Under the pieces are notes generated by a model, which saw only the letters and a list, made by a program, of their open reading frames with translations, did no database searches and was not told the DNA's origin. DNA of 64,000 nt, from positions 3,374,501 through 3,438,500 of the forward strand of contig NZ_CP047045.1 in assembly GCF_009792355.1 (NCBI RefSeq), in the 5' to 3' direction. Origin of the DNA: Terricaulis silvestris. Its GTDB lineage: Bacteria > Pseudomonadota > Alphaproteobacteria > Caulobacterales > Aquidulcibacteraceae. Positions within the stretch are counted from its first letter, which is position 1, and the number at the start of each line of letters is the position of its first letter. This document shows positions 2,010 to 11,618 of the stretch, in pieces. The position numbers and the translations under genes were made by a program.

Positions 2010-3704
2010 CTAGGCGTCGGGCGCAATATCCCAAGCACTGTAGAGCCTCGCGAGCAGCGCATTCTGGCGATCTTGCAGTACTGTCGGCGTCCATACGTCC
2101 TCACCGAGAACCTGCGTGGTTATCACGAACGGTGACACTCCTCCGCTTTCAGAAAAATATCGCTCCTTCTTTGTTGCGAAGTCCCAATTGCTCGCCTGAA
2201 TATTCTTCCGAAGCGTGAGCAGCATTAGATTGGCAAGCTTGTGAGTCCACGTCTCTCGCTCAGCTTCGTCAGGAAAATCTTTCAGCCATTGGCTGCTGGC
2301 ACTGGGAGTTTGAGGCAGCACATGTTCGACGGAAACGACATCATAATTGTATGTCGCACCGCCAGAAGAGAGCTCCGCATCAAGCCGAAGAAGCAGAGGC
2401 AGGCGAACTCTCGTAATTTGATAGATGGGGCCGTCAAGGTGAACGCGAAACGCGACCTTGTCCGCCGCCGATAGCTGCATAGACTCACCGTCTGGCACTC
2501 CATTGGCCAAGTCCGTGAGGACAGCAGCGTATCTACGAATACGTTCGTTGATGTCCGCGCGCGTCACGAATAAGAAATAGGCGAGCGTCTCTAGTCGCCG
2601 CATGAATTGCGCTGCTTCTTCCGGTTCTGGCTCGGCCTCAGCGAAATACTTTAGTGCAACAGGCAACCAATCGCTGTTGTCCAGCTTGGTTATGTATCGA
2701 AGACGCTTTGCACTCTCCTCGCCATAGTGCACCGCAAAATCAAATGGAGAAACCAGCCTGGCATAGGTCGCCCCGAGCGGCTGCAAGACTTCCCTCAGGA
2801 ACCTCTTGTGGTCGGAGAAGTCGGTCACAAACTTTTTAAACCCAACCTCAAGCCTCTCCCTTGGCTTGTCGCGCTGGTAAATCATCCGAATGTGCTGAAA
2901 CAGCTCAACGAACCGCTCGCGTCCGAGCTGCTCTTCGATTGCTTCCCAGGCGTCCGCGTAGTCCCTTTCATCTTGTGGCGGCACGCGATCAAGCAAATCC
3001 GCTTTAAGGATGTCCGCTGGCGTAAGATCTAGTCCTCGTGCATTGAGCACGGTGAATACGCGATGTGCCATGTCGACATTTGCGACGGCGATGACGACCA
3101 AATAGCAACGCTGCAAAAGAAACGCGACTAAGCGGTCGCGCAATTCCGGCGTCATAGCTTTTGCTCGATCGCTGAAGATTTTGGCTGCTTCGACGATCCT
3201 TAGTCGGCTATCGGTCAACCCCTTCGCGCTCGGCAAAGCGCCCGTTGTGTCTTTCCTCTGGATGGTCTCGCGAAAAAATTCTTCGTCGCGTTTCCGGAGC
3301 GTGAGACGGTATCGGCTCTTTGTGCCTTTGTCTGGGTCGCCGTCCTCGCAAACATAAGAATGACGCCTTATTGCGATCTCCGGCGTTGAAAGATCTCGCA
3401 ACACCGAGAACAATATTGTGAGGGTCGTAAGCCTCTGCTGTCCATCGACGACTTTGGCGTCGGGCGAGCCAGGCTGCTTGATAAGCACGATGCTGCCTAG
3501 AAAGTACGTCACTGGCTCGCGCGTATCAGTCGCATCCGTGAGCGCGGAAAGAATATCGTCGAGCAACGCTTCGACTTGCTCTTTTTCCCAAGCGTAAGGG
3601 CGTTGGTAAGTCGGAATCGCGAAAGCGAATTCATCACTGAATACGCGGCTCAGTCGCTCCTGCCCCGCCTTGATGGGCTCAAGCTCCATGGGCTCAAACT
3701 GCAT
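2010..3704 (-). CDS. GmrSD-like DUF262/DUF1524 protein (modification-dependent nuclease type)
   Basis: A 564-residue protein with the full GmrSD/BrxU architecture. The N-terminal DUF262 domain carries IPTYQRPYAW (30-39), DGQQRLTTL (87-95) and NARGLDLTPADILK (221-234). The C-terminal DUF1524 HNH-type nuclease domain carries VEHVLPQ (459-465) followed by the spaced W, N, L, N and F-x-x-K residues to about 515. In characterised members DUF262 binds and hydrolyses NTP and DUF1524 cuts DNA, giving type IV restriction of glucosylated or otherwise modified phage DNA. That role is inferred here. Its ATG directly follows the TGA of the upstream helicase fragment (TGAATG), so it is probably translated in the same operon as hsdM and hsdS. 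Both active-site signatures look intact. Confidence 0.85.
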   Translation of the reverse strand: MQFEPMELEPIKAGQERLSRVFSDEFAFAIPTYQRPYAWEKEQVEALLDDILSALTDATDTREPVTYFLGSIVLIKQPGSPDAKVVDGQQRLTTLTILFSVLRDLSTPEIAIRRHSYVCEDGDPDKGTKSRYRLTLRKRDEEFFRETIQRKDTTGALPSAKGLTDSRLRIVEAAKIFSDRAKAMTPELRDRLVAFLLQRCYLVVIAVANVDMAHRVFTVLNARGLDLTPADILKADLLDRVPPQDERDYADAWEAIEEQLGRERFVELFQHIRMIYQRDKPRERLEVGFKKFVTDFSDHKRFLREVLQPLGATYARLVSPFDFAVHYGEESAKRLRYITKLDNSDWLPVALKYFAEAEPEPEEAAQFMRRLETLAYFLFVTRADINERIRRYAAVLTDLANGVPDGESMQLSAADKVAFRVHLDGPIYQITRVRLPLLLRLDAELSSGGATYNYDVVSVEHVLPQTPSASSQWLKDFPDEAERETWTHKLANLMLLTLRKNIQASNWDFATKKERYFSESGGVSPFVITTQVLGEDVWTPTVLQDRQNALLARLYSAWDIAPDA

Positions 3705-4805
3705 TCACGCCCCCCGCAAAAAAAACGAAATGGTCACCTTCTCGACCACAGCTCCGCGATTGACCAGTTCGCGCACAAACTGCGCGTGAGCTCGGCGCAC
3801 CCTGGCGTCAGCGATGGCGTATGGGTCGAGGATGTGGAGATGAATAACTCTCCTGCCGCTGAACGGCGCCAAGATCTCGTCCAAAGGCCGTGGCTCATTT
3901 GGCGATAGCCTCCATCGCCCAAAGCTCATCCGTTGTACGAGCCGCTCGCTTGGCGTCGGCACAATAGGCCTCGCAGCGTCCGACACTTGGCCAGTGACCG
4001 TTGGCGCTTCATTCGTCGTGCTCGTATTCTTCGGCCCACCGCCCGAAATCGCTTCAAATAGGGCGGCGATATCACCCGTATCTCCTTCAGGCGCCACCAG
4101 CATCTGTTGCGAAAGGGTACGCTTCTTCTCGATGAGATCGTGCAGTCGCAAATCAAAGCTCATTGGACCGAGGTCTGGATCTGGATGCTCTGCGAGCGGA
4201 AGGTAAACATGCACCGCCTTTTCCTGCCCAATCCGATAGGCGCGGTCGGTGCTCTGATCCTCGACCGCCGGGTTCCACCACCTCGATAAGTGAATCACAT
4301 GATTGGCGGCCGTCAGCGTCAAGCCTACGCCTCCTGCTTTCGGCGAGAGGATCATCACGTCAAAGACGTCTCGGGTTTTCTGAAAGGCTTTGACGAGCTC
4401 CTGCCGCTTTGCACCGGGCACACCACCGTGAATGCGATGCGGCCTCTGTTGTAGCTTAAAGCGTTGCTGAACAATCGCAGCGAGACGCTCCTGCATTGCC
4501 AGACTTTCGACGAAAATGAGCACCTTTTCGCGCTTCAACGCGATCCGATCGAGCTGCTCTATCGTCCACTTCAACCGCGCGGACTCGGCCGCGTACGCAG
4601 CTAGATCACAAGGTTCAACTTCCGGGTCGACAGGATGCAACGATACGCCACGCAACGCGTGCAGGACCTGCAACATCATTCCTGGGGCCGGCTTATCGAT
4701 CTTCGCCGCAAGTGCACTACGGACGATGCCGGCATAGGCGTTCGCTTGCGTCGCTGGCATTTTGAGGCGCTCTGCCTGGACGTGCTTGGCTGGCAAAGCG
4801 AACAA
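3705..4805 (-). pseudogene. SNF2-family helicase, C-terminal half only, fused to the hsdS end
   Basis: The 366-residue frame begins at the linker of a SNF2 helicase (ALPAKHV then a Q...Y motif) and contains only the second RecA lobe: a strand VLIFVES near 95-101, motif V GGVGLTLTAA at 158-167 and motif VI QSTDRAYRIGQ at 184-194. Walker A, the DEAH box and all of lobe 1 are missing, so ATPase activity is not expected. The only in-frame start is a TTG at 4805, inside hsdS. The upstream sequence passes directly into the HsdS frame at about 4790-4805, which marks a deletion junction. A further region (about 310-366, RVIHLHILDPYAIADARV) follows that I do not recognise and that may be the start of another domain cut short. 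SNF2 helicases of this type occur in bacterial defence loci. The fragment is likely inert but could be translated by coupling. Confidence 0.7.
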
Positions 4806-5376
4806 ACCATTCGTCGAAGAGCAGGCGCGTCGCTCGTTCCAGAAGCGCCATTCGACGTTCGTTGTTCGTCACAAGGGCATCATAGACCCTTAGCTTTTCA
4901 GCGATGCTCATCTGCTCATCGACGCTCGGCAACGTAATCGAAAAGCGACGAAGTTCTCCAAGCAGAAGATTTTTCTGAGCAGCTCCCGCCGAGGCATTGA
5001 CCAATCTCTCGCGACTATCAACGAGCGCGTAATAGAGAAACCTTGGGTCAACCAACTCACGAATTGGCTTCAAAACAGCCACGCTCTTTTGAAAGGTCGT
5101 GCAGGCGGTACGGTCGTCTGCCTCCGCAATCGCGATGCGACCGATGGTGCCGCTATTTGTTACGAGGACATCACCTTCGCACAAATCTGTTCGTCGGTGT
5201 GTTTCTTCAAAGTCCGATTGTGTGATTTCGCGCGCTCCCAGGTAGTTCACGCGCCCGTCTCGGATGTCCTTCGCACTGATAAAGAAAAATCCGGAGTCGT
5301 CCTGGTCACGACAATCGCCATGTTTGCCGTCTGTGATGAGGCTGCAAATCTTTCCAAGGGTCACTTGAGGACGCAT
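4717..5376 (-). CDS. hsdS: Type I restriction-modification specificity subunit, one target-recognition domain only
   Basis: A 219-residue HsdS; full-length subunits are usually 400-450 residues with two target-recognition domains (TRDs). Residues 1-150 form a single TRD (start VTLGKICSLITDGKHGD, then NSGTIGR and SAGAAQKNLL). Residues 151-194 are the conserved spacer helix ending LLFDEWFVRF. In full-length homologues an RFPGHE-like link and TRD2 would follow here. Instead a 25-residue out-of-frame tail overlaps the SNF2 fragment and stops at 4717. The start ATG overlaps the hsdM stop as TAATG, typical coupling. Engineered or transposon-cut half-S subunits (EcoR124I, EcoDXXI) can pair to recognise palindromic sites, so this one may still guide methylation. 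Whether it does is inference. Confidence 0.8.
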   Translation of the reverse strand: MRPQVTLGKICSLITDGKHGDCRDQDDSGFFFISAKDIRDGRVNYLGAREITQSDFEETHRRTDLCEGDVLVTNSGTIGRIAIAEADDRTACTTFQKSVAVLKPIRELVDPRFLYYALVDSRERLVNASAGAAQKNLLLGELRRFSITLPSVDEQMSIAEKLRVYDALVTNNERRMALLERATRLLFDEWFVRFASQARPGRAPQNASDASERLCRHRP

Positions 5377-7412
5377 TACAGGAGCAACTCAAGGTTCGAC
5401 GCGATTTGCGATGCTAGTTCCACAGATTCGGCGTTCAATTCTTCCAACTCGCTGTGAATCTCTCGCATGGTTTCGTCAAAATCGAAATCCTCATCGATTT
5501 CTTGCGGAGCTACCCCAACATAGCGTCCCGGTGATAAGCTCCAGTCGTTGGCATCCAATATTTTGAAGTCGACCAGCTTGACTAGGCCATCTACGTCGCG
5601 AAGCTTTGCTTCTGGGAAGCGCAACTGTAACCAGTGTGCATGTCGCGCAAAATGGCGCACGCGGTTGAGCGCATCCGCTGCGAGTCCACGCATCTCTTCC
5701 AGCGCTTTGATAACCTGCTTTGCGTCGCGCGTGCCTTTGCCATTTGGCTCCGCGCTATCGGTCAGGCGAGAGAGCATTTTTGTGACGTGGTCGATGTCCT
5801 TGGCCAAGACGTGTCCGCGTTCTGCGTATGTCGCTATGGACTCCGCACTTACGTGGAGCGTCTTGTTGTCTCTTTTCGCCTTTGCCCAGTTCGATTCAAC
5901 AGCGGTCGTCGCATCCCTGAAGTCACCTGCTTCTTTGCGCAGTTTTTTTGCTAATGACGCAATTTCAGTAAGTGCGGCGGGTTTCTTCCCGTTGCCGACT
6001 GAAGCGATGGTTTTCTCCACGCCTGCCAGTGATTTGAGGAAGTTATCCAATGGTTCGAGTGCAGCCCGGCCAGCCTCAGTCGCAGTTTGGAGGTGATTTG
6101 TCACGAGTGCGAGGAACCGGTCGCTTTGTCCCCGATAGAGCCACACGATAGCGGTCAGGTTGGCAAGTTGCTCGGGTGAAAAGTCGAAAATTCTTCGTGT
6201 AACCTTCCTGTAAACGCCGCGCGCGTCGAGCATCAATATTTTGTCGGCGTGTGCTTTAGGCCTGTCCTTATTCAAGAACCACAGTTCACAAGGCACGCTC
6301 CGCGTATAGAAGAAGTTTCCTCTAATGGAGACCATGGCATCGACGTGACCGCTCTTAATCAGGTCGCGCCGCACAGTCGCTTCTTGACCACTCGCACTCG
6401 AAGCCTGCGAGGACATGACAAATCCTGCACGACCCTTGCCGCTCAGGTATGCGTCAAAATATGAAATCCAAACGTAGTTTCCGTTGGAAACTTTGCCCTT
6501 GTTGTTCACCCCTGGCAGCCCGTAAGGCAGCCTCGGGTCGCGCCTAATTTTGTCGGCGTCAATTTCATCGACGTTGAACGGCGGATTCGCCATGACGAAA
6601 TCCGCCTTGCCGACAAGCTCATGGGAGTCTTCGTAGTAACTGATCGCTTTACTGATGCGCCCCTCCAACCCGTGAACCGCGAGGTTCATTTTCGCGAGAC
6701 GGATGGTCGTCGGGTTTTTCTCCATGCCATAGAAGGTGACGCTCTTGGTCGGGTCCTTCTTCAGGCTTTCAATAAAGTGCGCGCTCTGCACGAACATGCC
6801 GCCAGAGCCGCAGGCGGGGTCGAGAACCTTGCCGTGCTCCGGCTCGATGACGTTGACGATAAGTTGGACGAGCGAGACGGGGGTGAAGAACTCGCCGCCA
6901 TCGTGCGCCTTCAGGTCGGCAAACTGGGTGAGGAAGTATTCGTAGATACGCCCGAATACGTCGCCATTGGCCTTTTGCAGGGCCGGGTCGTTGAAGACGC
7001 GCAAAAGGTTGCCAAGCACGTCGTTGTCCAATTCTGTATATTCGGACTTGGGTAGCGTGCCCGCGAGCGAGTCATAGTCGCCTTCAATCGACTCCATTGC
7101 GGCGATAATGGCCTTGGCGCGGTCTGCGCTATCGGGCAGCGCGGCCAGATGGTCGAACTGGGCGGTGGGTTGAAGGTAGATTGCGCCTCGACCGGAAAAA
7201 TCCTCCTTGGTGAGCGCGCGTGTCTGACCTGCACGCTTGGGAAGCGCCGGCTCAATCTCCGCTCGGACCTTTAGGAAGCGGCTGTAGGCGTGACGGAGGA
7301 AAATCAGCCCCATCACGGGCAGGAAGTATTCGTTGCTCGCAAAATTGGAATTTGCGCGCAGGTTATCGGCGCTAGACCATAGTCGTTTCTCGATTTCGCC
7401 GATGTCGTCCAT
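5376..7412 (-). CDS. hsdM: Type I restriction-modification DNA adenine methyltransferase subunit
   Basis: A 678-residue HsdM. The N-terminal HsdM_N helical domain spans about 1-140 (LWSSADNLRANSN). The methyltransferase domain has DGGEFFTPVSLV at 171-182, the SAM motif DPACGSGGMF at 198-207 and the N6-adenine catalytic motif NPPFN at 276-280. A long helical C-terminal extension (about 430-678) makes it longer than the classical 500-residue form. It transfers methyl groups from SAM to adenine in the site chosen by HsdS. It is followed by hsdS with a TAATG overlap, and preceded after 15 bases by a small RHH gene. No hsdR is found in the window, so the system appears to be modification-only here. 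Both catalytic motifs are intact. Confidence 0.93.
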   Translation of the reverse strand: MDDIGEIEKRLWSSADNLRANSNFASNEYFLPVMGLIFLRHAYSRFLKVRAEIEPALPKRAGQTRALTKEDFSGRGAIYLQPTAQFDHLAALPDSADRAKAIIAAMESIEGDYDSLAGTLPKSEYTELDNDVLGNLLRVFNDPALQKANGDVFGRIYEYFLTQFADLKAHDGGEFFTPVSLVQLIVNVIEPEHGKVLDPACGSGGMFVQSAHFIESLKKDPTKSVTFYGMEKNPTTIRLAKMNLAVHGLEGRISKAISYYEDSHELVGKADFVMANPPFNVDEIDADKIRRDPRLPYGLPGVNNKGKVSNGNYVWISYFDAYLSGKGRAGFVMSSQASSASGQEATVRRDLIKSGHVDAMVSIRGNFFYTRSVPCELWFLNKDRPKAHADKILMLDARGVYRKVTRRIFDFSPEQLANLTAIVWLYRGQSDRFLALVTNHLQTATEAGRAALEPLDNFLKSLAGVEKTIASVGNGKKPAALTEIASLAKKLRKEAGDFRDATTAVESNWAKAKRDNKTLHVSAESIATYAERGHVLAKDIDHVTKMLSRLTDSAEPNGKGTRDAKQVIKALEEMRGLAADALNRVRHFARHAHWLQLRFPEAKLRDVDGLVKLVDFKILDANDWSLSPGRYVGVAPQEIDEDFDFDETMREIHSELEELNAESVELASQIASNLELLL

Positions 7413-7427: not shown

Positions 7428-7640
7428 CTAACCTTCACGACGTTGACGATCCCGCCTCTTGGTGGGCGCGCGCACTTTGCCTGCGCTCTTGGTTTGGTCG
7501 GTGAATCGCTGGACGTATCCTCGCATAAACTCGCGCAGGACTTGCGCGGCAGGGAGGTCTTGAGCCTGACACGCGCCGAGAAATTCCTCTCGGAGCGCCT
7601 TCTCAACTCGAATGCGGAGTCCTGCGTCCTTGGCCGACAT
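7428..7640 (-). CDS. Small ribbon-helix-helix (Arc/antitoxin-like) DNA-binding protein
   Basis: A 70-residue protein starting MSAKDAGLRIRVEKALREEF. It has the short beta strand (LRIRV) and two helices (LREEFLGACQAQ, AAQVLREFMRGYVQRF) of an RHH repressor or antitoxin, followed by a Lys/Arg-rich tail. An upstream TTG at 7745 keeps the frame open, but the extra 35 residues are not family-like, so the ATG at 7640 is preferred. It lies 15 bases upstream of hsdM on the same strand. A perfect palindrome ends seven bases before its ATG. The likely role is an autorepressor that also controls the hsdM-hsdS operon, or the antitoxin half of a decayed toxin-antitoxin pair. No toxin gene is visible beside it. 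Confidence 0.65.
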   Translation of the reverse strand: MSAKDAGLRIRVEKALREEFLGACQAQDLPAAQVLREFMRGYVQRFTDQTKSAGKVRAPTKRRDRQRREG

Positions 7641-7647
7641 TCTCCAA

Positions 7648-7666
7648 GTGTATCCAACGGATACAC
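7648..7666. promoter_or_regulatory. Perfect palindrome GTGTATCC-AAC-GGATACAC, likely operator
   Basis: Two exact 8-base arms with a 3-base spacer, ending seven bases before the ATG of the RHH gene and so upstream of hsdM. Position and symmetry fit a dimeric repressor site that would block the promoter or start region. The RHH protein is the obvious candidate; this is inference. Confidence 0.6.
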
Positions 7667-8161
7667 AGTGAAAAGCCGAATTCGAAGCGGCGACGATGTA
7701 TGAGGCCTTCCAAGCACTCCGCTGGCCCTTCGATGTCGCCTTCAATTTATTTCATATTGTCCGTGGGTTACAGCGTGGGTACGCGGCCTCGGGCATCGGG
7801 AAGCCTTGAAAAAATAGGGCTCCGCGGAGGACTCCTTTCCGCCATCGATGGAGCGTCGTTGGGCCTCTCCACCGACGCGGATCATCGCGCCTCGCACGCG
7901 CGACAGTTGATTGTCCGCTTACCCAGCCTGACGACAGGCCGGCATGTCGCTTGATGCCCCGAAGCGGTCGCCCGATTGTGCGACTATCCGCTGGACTTCG
8001 CTTCGGAAGAGAGCGTGCATGGACCCGATGAACGAGGCCCATGTCGCACCGCAACAACGCATCTCTTTGACCTAGCGCGCGCCCCACTCCTGGCGCGCAC
8101 ACCCCCGCTTTGGCGGGGCTTGCGGTCGTACCGGCGACGGGCCGGTGCAGGAGTAAGAGAC
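7667..8161. other. Intergenic region between divergent RM operon and recombinase cassette
   Basis: About 500 bases between the minus-strand RHH gene and the plus-strand DUF3489 gene, so it should hold two divergent promoters. I see a G/C hairpin CCCCGC-TTTG-GCGGGG at 8103-8118, about 45 bases before the DUF3489 start, without a following T run. The longer open frames on both strands here (for example 7752-8330 minus) have no family-like sequence. Confidence 0.5.
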
Positions 8162-8410
8162 ATGGCCAAACAAACCGCGAAGCAGCGCAAGACGCCGCCC
8201 AAATCCCCATCCAGCAAACTCGATCAAATCGTAACCGCGCTGCGCGCACGCAAAGGCGCAACGATCGGGCAACTCGTAACGCTAACCGGTTGGCAGGCGC
8301 ATTCCGTGCGCGGCGCGATGTCAGGCGCACTGAAGAAGCAGCGGGGCTTCACGATAACGTCGACCAAATCCGGTAGCGAGCGCGTCTACAAAATCGAGGG
8401 CGCGCGATGA
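8162..8410 (+). CDS. DUF3489-family small protein
   Basis: An 82-residue basic protein starting MAKQTAKQRKTPP. The core KLDQIVTALRARKGATIGQLVTLTGW, then HSVRGAMSGALKKQRGF and GSERVYKIEG, match the DUF3489 family, a winged-helix-like domain often found next to serine recombinases in alphaproteobacteria. The frame is open further upstream, but an AGGAG site nine bases before this ATG and the family N-terminus support this start. It is the first gene of a tight four-gene cassette: its TGA overlaps the next ATG (ATGA). A DNA-binding or directionality role for the recombinase is plausible but unproven. Confidence 0.8.
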   Translation: MAKQTAKQRKTPPKSPSSKLDQIVTALRARKGATIGQLVTLTGWQAHSVRGAMSGALKKQRGFTITSTKSGSERVYKIEGAR

Positions 8411-8613
8411 ACGTTGCCGAAGAAGCTGGCATGGCGCTCGCGCATGTCTGGGAAACTATGGTGGTGTTGGCGGAGGCCGGCAACGACATGGTTGTTGATC
8501 AACAGCGCCTGGCCCCCGCCAATGGCGCTGGCGAGATCGCGAAGATCGCCGCCGATCTATCCGCTCTTTCGCGCGCAGCGGAGGTGTTGGCGAAACTGAG
8601 GGATCGGACGTGA
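8407..8613 (+). CDS. Small helical hypothetical protein of the recombinase cassette
   Basis: A 68-residue, Ala-rich, acidic protein (MNVAEEAGMALAHVWETMVV) predicted to be all-helical. It has no motif I recognise. Support comes from context: its ATG overlaps the DUF3489 stop by four bases and its own TGA overlaps the start of the next gene, so the cassette is packed as one translation-coupled operon. The coding probability is good and the function is unknown. Confidence 0.6.
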   Translation: MNVAEEAGMALAHVWETMVVLAEAGNDMVVDQQRLAPANGAGEIAKIAADLSALSRAAEVLAKLRDRT

Positions 8614-9038
8614 TGGCGCCCATCGACTTTGACGCGCTGACGCTTCATCAGGCGCGAGTTCTGTGGGCAAAGCATCTCAAAACTCGGCTTCCTCGCCACC
8701 GCTCGCGCGACCTTCTCGCGCGCGCCCTTTCGTATCATCTGCAGGCGCGCACAGACGGTGGCCTTACGCAAACGCTTCGGCGCAAACTCGACGATCTAGC
8801 GCCACGCTTTGTTGCGGACAAAGACTTCGCCCCTGCTCCAGCAGAACGGCCCAAACCTGGCAGCGTTCTGGTGCGCGAGTGGAACGGTGTCAGCCACGCC
8901 GTGACGGTGACCAGTACGGGCTTCCTGTACGACGGCAAACCGTTCGCCTCGCTGACTGCAGTCGCGCGCGCCATCACGGGCACGCACTGGAATGGTCCCC
9001 ACTTCTTCCGCCTCAAAGACGGAGTGAGGAAGAAATGA
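8613..9038 (+). CDS. DUF2924-family protein
   Basis: A 141-residue protein of the DUF2924 family, known mainly as the gene in front of serine recombinases in alphaproteobacterial mobile elements. Visible family features are LWAKHLKTRLPRHRSRDLLARALSYHLQ near 18-46, the PGSVLVREWNGVSHAVTV block near 81-98, and FASLTAVARAITGTHWNGPHFF near 110-132. A GTG at 8610 directly precedes the chosen ATG and either could start it. Its stop overlaps the recombinase ATG (ATGA). The C-terminal half resembles a small beta-rich nucleic-acid-binding fold, but no activity is established. Confidence 0.8.
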   Translation: MAPIDFDALTLHQARVLWAKHLKTRLPRHRSRDLLARALSYHLQARTDGGLTQTLRRKLDDLAPRFVADKDFAPAPAERPKPGSVLVREWNGVSHAVTVTSTGFLYDGKPFASLTAVARAITGTHWNGPHFFRLKDGVRKK

Positions 9039-10594
9039 AGACCAAACGGCAATGTGCGATCTACACACGCACCTCGACGGAAGAAGGCCTCGCTCAGGAT
9101 TTCAATTCGCTGCACGCACAAGCCGAAGCGTGCACCGCTTTCATCAAGTCTCAAGCAAGCGAGGGGTGGATTACGGCGCGACGCATCTACGAGGACGGCG
9201 GATATTCCGGCGGTTCGATTGAGCGCCCAGCTCTTCGTGAGCTGCTTGATGACATCGCGGCCGGCCGCGTTGATGTGGTCGTGGTCTACAAAGTCGACCG
9301 CCTCACGCGCTCATTGGCGGATTTCGCTAAGATCGTTGAAATCATGGATGCCGAAGGCGCATCGTTTGTTTCGGTCACACAGTCATTCAACACCACGACC
9401 AGCATGGGACGGCTGACGCTGAACGTCTTGCTGTCCTTCGCGCAGTTTGAACGCGAAGTTACTGGCGAGCGCATCCGCGATAAGTTCGCAGCATCGAAGG
9501 CTAAGGGCATCTTCATGGGCGGGACGCCGCCACTAGGCTACGACATTGGTGAGCGTGCGTTGGTCGTCAATGCTGCCGAAGGGGAGACGGTTCGCTTCAT
9601 CTTTCAGCGTTTTCTCGAAATTGGATCGGTGTCGTTGCTAGCGGACGATTTGCGCGATCGCGGCATAAAGTCGAAGCGGCACACGAGTCGAAAGGGCAAC
9701 ACACGGGGCGGCGTCACGATCTATCCCGGCGCACTGGCGCAAATACTCGACAACCCGATCTATTGCGGCGTCATCCGACATAAGGGCGTTCAACACGCTG
9801 GCCAGCATGAACGGATCATCGACCCTGAGCTTTGGGAGGCCGTCCAGGAATTGAGAAGCAAGACGCGCGGCAAAGGTCGCAGCGCTCAACTACGCTCGGG
9901 CGCGCGGCTGATAGGCAAGGTGTTCGACTCGCTCGGCAATCCGATGAGTCCGACCATCACCAAGAAGCAGTCAATACGCTATCGCTACTACATGACGCGC
10001 GAGCACGGTCTGGAAGGGCCGAAGGGTTCAATCCACCGCGTCCCGATGACCGCATTGGAAGGTGCTGTCATTGCAGAAGTCACGCCGCAGTTGGCTCCGA
10101 GTTGGCGAGGCGACGTCCACGATTCCGCGCAACGCGCCATGGAGGCGGTCCTCCGCGTTCGGATCTTTCCGACCGAGTTGCTGATCGACATCACCGCAGA
10201 CGCTGTCGGTGGAGACACCGATGCAGAGCCGGTCATTCTGAAATGCGAGGTGTCCTTCGAACGGCCGCGCAATTCGACAACGCTCATCCGAAGCGGCGCG
10301 CCGGCGCCCACGAAGGTCGATCGTTCTTTGGTCCGCGCAGTTGTGATGGCTCGTGCCTGGGTGAAGCGACTAGAGGCAGGCGAGCCCCAATCCATCAAGG
10401 GATTGGCTCGCGAGGAGGGTATTTGCGTGCTTCACACGGCAAAACTCCTGCCCCTCGCTTTCCTGGCACCTGACCTGGTGGGCCGGATTCTCGAGGGCCG
10501 GCAGCCGCGAACGCTGACGCTGACCGCGTTGATTTCTGAGCCTCTCCCCCTGGGTTGGGCCGATCAACGCGCGCGGTTTGCCGCCTTTGCCTGA
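9035..10594 (+). CDS. Large serine recombinase (site-specific integrase)
   Basis: A 519-residue recombinase. The N-terminal resolvase domain (about 1-150) has the nucleophile in YTRTSTEEG (Ser14), then YKVDRLTRSLADF and the SFAQFEREVTGERIRDK block. The recombinase domain (about 160-270) includes GYD, LADDLRDRGIKSK and ILDNPIYCGVIRHKG. The C-terminal third contains no Cys-rich zinc ribbon and resembles the forms paired with DUF2924. The open frame extends back to 8663, but the part before 9035 is a shadow of DUF2924. A GAGGAAG site and the ATGA overlap fix the ATG at 9035. It would integrate and excise a mobile element. A candidate repeat begins 12 bases after its stop. Confidence 0.92.
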   Translation: MKTKRQCAIYTRTSTEEGLAQDFNSLHAQAEACTAFIKSQASEGWITARRIYEDGGYSGGSIERPALRELLDDIAAGRVDVVVVYKVDRLTRSLADFAKIVEIMDAEGASFVSVTQSFNTTTSMGRLTLNVLLSFAQFEREVTGERIRDKFAASKAKGIFMGGTPPLGYDIGERALVVNAAEGETVRFIFQRFLEIGSVSLLADDLRDRGIKSKRHTSRKGNTRGGVTIYPGALAQILDNPIYCGVIRHKGVQHAGQHERIIDPELWEAVQELRSKTRGKGRSAQLRSGARLIGKVFDSLGNPMSPTITKKQSIRYRYYMTREHGLEGPKGSIHRVPMTALEGAVIAEVTPQLAPSWRGDVHDSAQRAMEAVLRVRIFPTELLIDITADAVGGDTDAEPVILKCEVSFERPRNSTTLIRSGAPAPTKVDRSLVRAVVMARAWVKRLEAGEPQSIKGLAREEGICVLHTAKLLPLAFLAPDLVGRILEGRQPRTLTLTALISEPLPLGWADQRARFAAFA

Positions 10595-10605
10595 TGCAGG
10601 CAGCG

Positions 10606-10640
10606 GCGAAGAGCTAACTTTTTCGATACGGCGAGAGAGA
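10606..10640. repeat. 35-bp direct repeat, copy 1
   Basis: Starts GCGAAGAGCTAACTTT and ends ACGGCGAGAGAGA. It matches the copy at 11370-11404 at 32 of 35 positions in the same orientation. It lies just after the serine recombinase stop codon, a place where attachment sites of such elements are common. Confidence 0.7.
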
Positions 10641-10869
10641 CCGAGGCTCAGTGGCGCCGTATCGCGCGCTTTCTGGCCAGCAGTTCGCGTTCTCTGACCA
10701 CCCGTTGCCCGGATTAGTGCCGCGAAGTCCGGCGTTTGCGGCGGCGGCGACCCGCGGCAGCGACACACAGGAAATGGGTGGTGGTCGGACAGTTCGATCG
10801 AACCTCTCACAGTGTGGATTTCACGCGCATCCATGCGCAGATGCATGGCTCAACGAGCTCGCGCTCGGC

Positions 10870-11542: not shown

Positions 11543-11618
11543 TGGTGGACCCTAGCGGGATCGAACCGCTGACCTCCTGCATGCCATGCAGGCGCTCTCC
11601 CAGCTGAGCTAAGGGCCC
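11543..11618 (-). tRNA. tRNA-Ala (anticodon GGC)
   Basis: A 76-base cloverleaf with an encoded CCA end. The acceptor arms GGGCCCT / AGGGTCC pair with one G-T. The D arm begins AGCTCAGCTGGGAGAGC. The anticodon stem CCTGC/GCAGG encloses the loop ATGGCAT (anticodon GGC, reading GCC and GCT alanine codons). The T arm holds GGTTCGATCC. It lies between the repeat region and the FYDLN-acid gene. tRNA genes are common island boundaries, but the 3' end is intact and no second copy of it is seen in this window. Confidence 0.96.

Follow-up and report, generated by a model that had tools for sequence, protein, structure and literature searches.

Gene content of the locus

The window analysed here is a 64-kb stretch of the Terricaulis silvestris genome, a single 3.86 Mb contig with a completeness of 97.4%. 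Towards its left end, hsdM, hsdS, a ZorD-like helicase fragment and gmrSD follow one another in that order, all on the minus strand. The features discussed below are:

5376..7412, minus strand: hsdM, an intact type I methyltransferase of 678 aa (Pfam N6_Mtase, E 1e-71, and HsdM_N; PADLOC MTase_I PDLC03035)
4717..5376, minus strand: hsdS open reading frame, 219 aa, its ATG overlapping the hsdM stop
4795..5376, minus strand: native part of hsdS, residues 1–194, with the first TRD and the central conserved helix
4717..4794, minus strand: foreign tail of hsdS, 25 aa, apparently ZorD DNA read in the wrong frame and then a stop
4794..4797, minus strand: apparent junction 1 (hsdS/zorD), where the family likeness of the two frames meets
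3705..4805, minus strand: apparent internal ZorD-like fragment, an open frame of 366 aa with the second helicase lobe and part of the C-terminal domain
3690..3729, minus strand: apparent junction 2 (zorD/gmrSD start), uncertain to about 40 bases and containing a T8 run and a G6 run
2010..3704, minus strand: gmrSD-type gene, 564 aa, with intact DUF262 and DUF1524 (Pfam, PADLOC)
9035..10594, plus strand: large serine recombinase (Pfam Resolvase and Recombinase)
11543..11618, minus strand: tRNA-Ala(GGC), its 3′ end being the apparent right edge of an island

HsdM aligns over residues 3–677 with positions 6–651 of the 653-position MTase_I profile, DPACGSGG and NPPF motifs can be recognized by eye, and the N6-adenine methylase domain that a type I restriction–modification (RM) system calls for is present. 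Just upstream of hsdM (7428–7745) lies a gene for a short ribbon-helix-helix protein, possibly a regulator.

The hsdS–zorD junction

The original prediction placed a switch from HsdS to helicase sequence near 4790–4805, and alignments together with PADLOC profiles uphold and narrow it to approximately 4794–4797. On the HsdS side, residues 32–180 match Pfam Methylase_S (E 6e-15), and the top five PADLOC Specificity_I profiles end at residues 194–195 of 219. Aligned with six full-length relatives (389, 404, 385, 384, 409 and 397 aa), the protein is family-like through LLFDEWFVRF, the point at which likeness had been predicted to end, with F194 at nt 4797–4795. After this motif the relatives run on into RFPGHE, or a close variant of it, and TRD2; the window HsdS reads ASQARPG. 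It thus has one TRD and one conserved region, against the two TRDs of a type I system. Some BLAST alignments extend HsdS likeness to residues 212–219 at 25–33% identity, which we take as chance, the same DNA in the other frame being part of the ZorD match.

On the helicase side, the frame (4805–3705) overlaps the last part of hsdS, and compared with 19 ZorD-like relatives its family likeness sets in at LPAKHV (L4 at nt 4796–4794). The relatives carry an (L/M)RR(M/L)K block followed by (L/M)P.(K/R), a block that the window fragment does not have, and the PADLOC ZorD1 match starts at fragment residue 3, equivalent to profile position 738 of 1208. By these alignments, junction 1 is a switch from hsdS to zorD within about 4 bases. 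TRD2 and the N-terminal helicase lobe are both gone, as had been predicted. A structure model of the half-HsdS, built from two sequences, is poor (mean pLDDT 41.5) except for one long helix at 152–198.

Identity and state of the helicase fragment

The best PADLOC profile for the fragment is ZorD1 of type I Zorya (PDLC00634, E 1e-135), with residues 3–359 falling on 738–1118 of 1208. NCBIfam returns the SCO1167/SCO6262 SNF2 helicase family (1.2e-38) and ZorD (1.3e-38), both far under their cut-offs, as expected since the query is a fragment. Among solved structures, the nearest chain is 8qy7_A, a 1080-residue DEAD/DEAH box helicase that we take to be E. coli ZorD. Judged by these matches, the fragment is ZorD-like and closest to the ZorD of type I Zorya; the SNF2 likeness originally described stands, now in a more specific form. 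The fragment comprises approximately 360 of the approximately 1200 residues of ZorD, and lacks lobe 1 with the ATP site.

Its relatives sit in recognizable Zorya systems. In genome G018 the homologue, 1228 aa long, follows ZorA, ZorB and ZorC (profile-confirmed), and zor genes lie upstream of the homologue in all seven loci from the order that have long flanks (L084, L105–L110), L108 being cut before ZorA. As a query, the fragment found at least 80 ZorD-like genome-contig loci, with flanks of up to 9 kb. Ten of the 80 loci listed match ZorA, ZorB and ZorC of G018 as well as ZorD and 70 match ZorD only, so many of them would be more distant SNF2 helicases or cut contigs. In 73 loci of the same list, 500 residues or more precede the matched place; six are cut by a record edge and one (L025) is short.

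All 51 residues invariant in 20 relatives (aligned core) are kept in the fragment, and there is no stop in its 366 codons; it is not visibly decayed. Its terminal branch (0.64) ranks fourth in length among 21, that of its nearest tree partner being about half as long (L098, same order, 0.33; support only 0.58), and the long branch means that some relaxed evolution is possible. An undecayed frame fits a fairly recent break, or could mean retained function. We infer that the ZorD piece has no function.

A second junction in front of gmrSD

Likeness to ZorD ends near residue 359–360 (nt 3731–3726), after which the frame reads FFLRGA and TGA, with the gmrSD ATG directly following. We aligned 14 relatives across this region, three of which (L010, L012 and L016) have a different C-terminus; all 11 with the C-terminal domain extend 87–107 residues past the fragment end, through an HDR motif. 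The evidence for junction 2 is limited to these 11, since 74 frames of the 80 helicase loci listed stop shortly after lobe 2 and have never carried such a domain. A frameshift in place of a second junction was rejected: after 3729 no reading frame continues ZorD. Judged against the relatives that share the C-terminal domain, the fragment is an internal piece of ZorD, broken at both ends. The prediction that a C-terminal half had been fused therefore falls, as the piece stops inside the C-terminal domain, before an intact GmrSD gene. The single deletion proposed with it does not explain the locus either, having missed the junction at approximately 3729–3690. An internal piece needs two breaks, which could be two deletions or one patch of ZorD set between hsdS and gmrSD. 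We saw no convincing repeats at the two junctions.

GmrSD carries GmrSD_N (E 5e-37) and GmrSD_C (E 8e-23) in one chain, the domain content of a type IV GmrSD, and aligns over residues 11–558 with positions 3–566 of the 566-position PADLOC profile Orf5 (PDLC02686). It shares DUF262 and DUF1524 with single-chain GmrSD/HEC-06 type IV proteins, has 564 aa here and differs from them by neighbourhood alone; it presumably acts alone as a modification-dependent nuclease. The start of the gene has an imperfect 15-base tandem duplication (3673–3702, MQFEP MELEP), so that two start codons are candidates. A terminator-like hairpin with a T-rich tail (3749–3730, minus strand) immediately precedes junction 2 and the beginning of gmrSD. 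Terminator-like sites, this one included, number 14 against a mean of 8.0 (sd 3.3) in shuffles, and promoter-like sites two against a mean of 2.1.

Partners not detected in the genome

The original prediction presumed hsdR lost, and no hsdR-type gene was detected in the genome (97.4% complete), where a type I RM system would have HsdR encoded. The HSDR_N profile (PF04313) has no match in the genome, with controls matching in 10 of 14 genomes, and the hsdR of G115 found none in a search run without a positive control. Methylase_S matches once in the genome, at this hsdS, leaving no sign of another HsdS that might complete the half.

Of the Zorya genes, likewise, one piece was seen. With the full ZorD of G018 as query, the genome match is limited to residues 755–1135, at this fragment; ZorA of G018 has no match in the genome (again without a positive control), and ZorB and ZorC have none within the 64-kb window. 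The locus shares the PADLOC ZorD1 assignment with type I Zorya (zorABCD), but the ZorA, ZorB, ZorC and full-length ZorD that define such a system were not found in these searches.

Relatives of the individual genes

Our searches with hsdM found relatives in 4 of 289 class genomes and 5 of 398 phylum genomes (own genome included in both), 12 plasmid records and one viral-contig locus. Of the 20 relatives found, 11 were examined, including 3 of the 12 plasmid records. An hsdS is readable in ten of the 11 and is full in all ten (384–418 aa), L149 being cut by a contig end; hsdR follows in all seven loci with enough downstream sequence. In G187 (L091 8843–10845), the hsdM reading frame is broken into two that overlap (350 and 321 aa), likely by a frameshift, with whole hsdS and hsdR behind. 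The viral-contig scan with hsdM gave one locus, a full operon, and that with the half-HsdS gave no match. On the viral contig (L151 594–9917), a distant GmrSD-like gene (27% identity) is followed by hsdM, hsdS and hsdR.

Among 398 genomes of the order, the helicase fragment matches in 10 including its own, and eight of the nine others have frames of 1096–1270 aa. The ninth, G519 (L112 5459–7269), encodes a 362-aa truncated ZorD that starts beside a transposase-like ORF (by eye); this is an independent break at another place. The hsdS of the window is absent from all 80 ZorD-like loci listed (E ≤ 1e-4, within flanks of 9 kb or less), and the pairing of half-HsdS with a short helicase ORF, whose conservation in distant genomes would have spoken for a stable gene pair, is thus not seen there. 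Three of the seven order Zorya loci with long flanks have a type I gene nearby (L105, L107 and L110). In one, from G329 (L105 2547–13402), a zorABCD operon stands head to head with an hsdM–hsdS pair.

Five relatives of gmrSD were examined: all three genome matches and 2 of 97 plasmid records. Three of these (L119, L120 and L122) adjoin a gene weakly similar (23–26%) to this hsdM, and L118 and L121 do not. In no relative was this hsdS found beside a close gmrSD. A DNA search of 20 relatives matched G018 alone, in the ZorD part; a tblastx match to 4688–4879 of L138, one of 11 genus loci fetched at the same tRNA, was set aside as a wrong-frame chance match (27% identity).

A variable site at tRNA-Ala

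The tRNA-Ala(GGC) stretch and the gene behind it are matched in all 30 genus genomes, 28 times as long pieces and twice (G012 and G576) as short ones, and in most of these homology begins at the 3′ end of the tRNA (11543) or a few bases from it. In 11 fetched sister loci (7–19.5 kb) the left side differs, four sharing parts of the recombinase stretch (~7980–10785). None of hsdM, hsdS, hsdR, zorABCD or gmrSD has a match in the 11 (E ≤ 1e-3). The tRNA-Ala site is a variable hotspot. G+C is 53–59% over 1–8 kb, 57–63% over 8–12 kb and 60–68% from 12 to 24 kb. Within the window, no copy of the tRNA end was found that would mark the island on its left side. The large serine recombinase (9035–10594) lies beside this tRNA, whose 3′ end edges the variable cargo; tRNA ends are more usual for tyrosine integrases.

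Origin of the array

The locus is most probably the scar of a recombination within a defence island at tRNA-Ala, and what remains is an hsdM and half-HsdS pair built like NgoAV. A type I RM operon (hsdM–hsdS, perhaps accompanied by a GmrSD gene) would have collapsed together with a type I Zorya system: the cut in hsdS would lie just past the central conserved helix, with an out-of-frame join to the middle of zorD, and the ZorD piece would have been cut a second time just ahead of gmrSD. Left over would be hsdM, an HsdS half made of a complete TRD plus helix, an intact gmrSD and a ZorD piece that lacks the ATP-site lobe. As read from the aligned sequences, the anatomy and both breaks are shown. 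Two breaks are less simple than one, which counts against a scar.

Alignment to full-length relatives, as originally proposed, fixed the junction. The sister with an undeleted locus that was also sought did not turn up, either in the order search (398 genomes including its own) or among the 11 genus loci at the same tRNA, so the parental gene order has to be reconstructed. One guide is the VPI-2 island of V. cholerae, described as having a predicted Zorya I (VC1761-64) and a type I RM system (VC1765-69) with two GmrSD-family genes embedded; the same source says that GmrSD homologues are frequent in type I loci (PMC11411939). VPI-2 resembles our locus in combining type I RM, GmrSD and Zorya I, but its systems, as described, are uncollapsed and its GmrSD is two proteins (TgvAB). 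By analogy, the VPI-2 locus tags in that account suggest a parental order M-S-gmrSD-R-zor. Given such a parent, it would take a patch insertion to set ZorD between S and gmrSD, as deletions alone do not; from a parent M-S-R-zorABCD-gmrSD, two deletions would suffice.

We consider it possible, if somewhat doubtful, that a 1.1 kb zorD fragment was patched into an M-S-gmrSD operon as a break was repaired, at the cost of the 3′ half of hsdS, with hsdR lost separately; this would be a variant of the scar. A ZorD piece broken at both ends beside a whole gmrSD start would fit such an event, and S near gmrSD in the parent is favoured by three of the five gmrSD relatives and by the VPI-2 type I operon as described. 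Set against it are the want of any relative with this hsdS beside a close gmrSD, and the orientation of the piece, the same as that of the operon, which a deletion series would also give. An assembly or sequencing chimera is very unlikely, given the single 3.86 Mb contig, two separate junctions 1.1 kb apart and a ZorD piece found nowhere else in the genome. Similarly unlikely is a stable array maintained by selection, with some task for the short ZorD lobe-2 protein, for example with the M/half-S pair or GmrSD: the open 366-codon frame with its 51 invariant residues and the TGA-ATG coupling to gmrSD would suit it, but none of the 80 listed ZorD-like loci carries this hsdS, eight of nine order relatives have long frames (1096–1270 aa) and one a different truncation, and the piece is without lobe 1 and its ATP site.

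A half-HsdS beside an intact methyltransferase

Under the scar interpretation, the surviving pair has a counterpart in NgoAV of Neisseria gonorrhoeae, whose natural HsdS of 208 aa is described as active (PMC9577141) and whose specificity is listed as symmetric (PMC3874165). Both loci place an N-terminal HsdS half by an intact hsdM, 208 of 410 aa in NgoAV as reported and 194 native residues here (relatives 384–418), and the half in the window has a complete TRD and the central helix, as an NgoAV-like half-HsdS should. NgoAV is described as arising by a poly-G frameshift and as keeping the second half, as hsdS2, together with hsdR, whereas here hsdS has lost its second half and is fused at its end to zorD DNA, and no hsdR was detected. 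An engineered half-HsdS of S. aureus CC398 is reported to dimerise and to methylate the palindrome ACCN5GGT (PMC6158711); that M/half-S pair is laboratory-made and, by the same account, cleaves once HsdR is added. The suggestion in the original prediction that the half may act as a dimer accordingly has precedent in these accounts. The half-HsdS dimer principle is already established, and the locus would be a further natural example. Among the titles and abstracts found on Zorya with truncation, gene fragments or structure, none reports an hsdS–zorD-type fusion.

By analogy, a homodimeric, palindrome-specific orphan m6A methylase is plausible. We put at about even the chance that two HsdS halves would pair helix to helix, recruit two HsdM and, without restricting DNA, methylate a bipartite palindromic site. 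The foreign 25-aa tail might disturb the half-HsdS. Together with the failure to detect an HsdR that would select for modification, this tail speaks for a dead pair, in which the half-HsdS fails to assemble and all of the operon but gmrSD is in decay; the intact hsdM, and a kept half near in size to the NgoAV half (208 aa) described as working, speak against it. A dead pair, which concerns activity only and is compatible with a scar, seems a little short of evenly likely. It is highly improbable that the collapse made a working two-part system, in which a homodimeric half-HsdS methylase with a new palindromic site, free of restriction, stands beside a GmrSD nuclease whose translation is coupled via the ZorD remnant, the lobe being kept as leader or partner; two defence systems would then have become an orphan epigenetic methylase plus a type IV enzyme.

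In this natural example, a type I methylase seems to have lost its nuclease, and kept half a specificity subunit, through recombination between neighbouring defence systems. Restriction systems could take this path to become orphan methylases that recognise a new, symmetric site.
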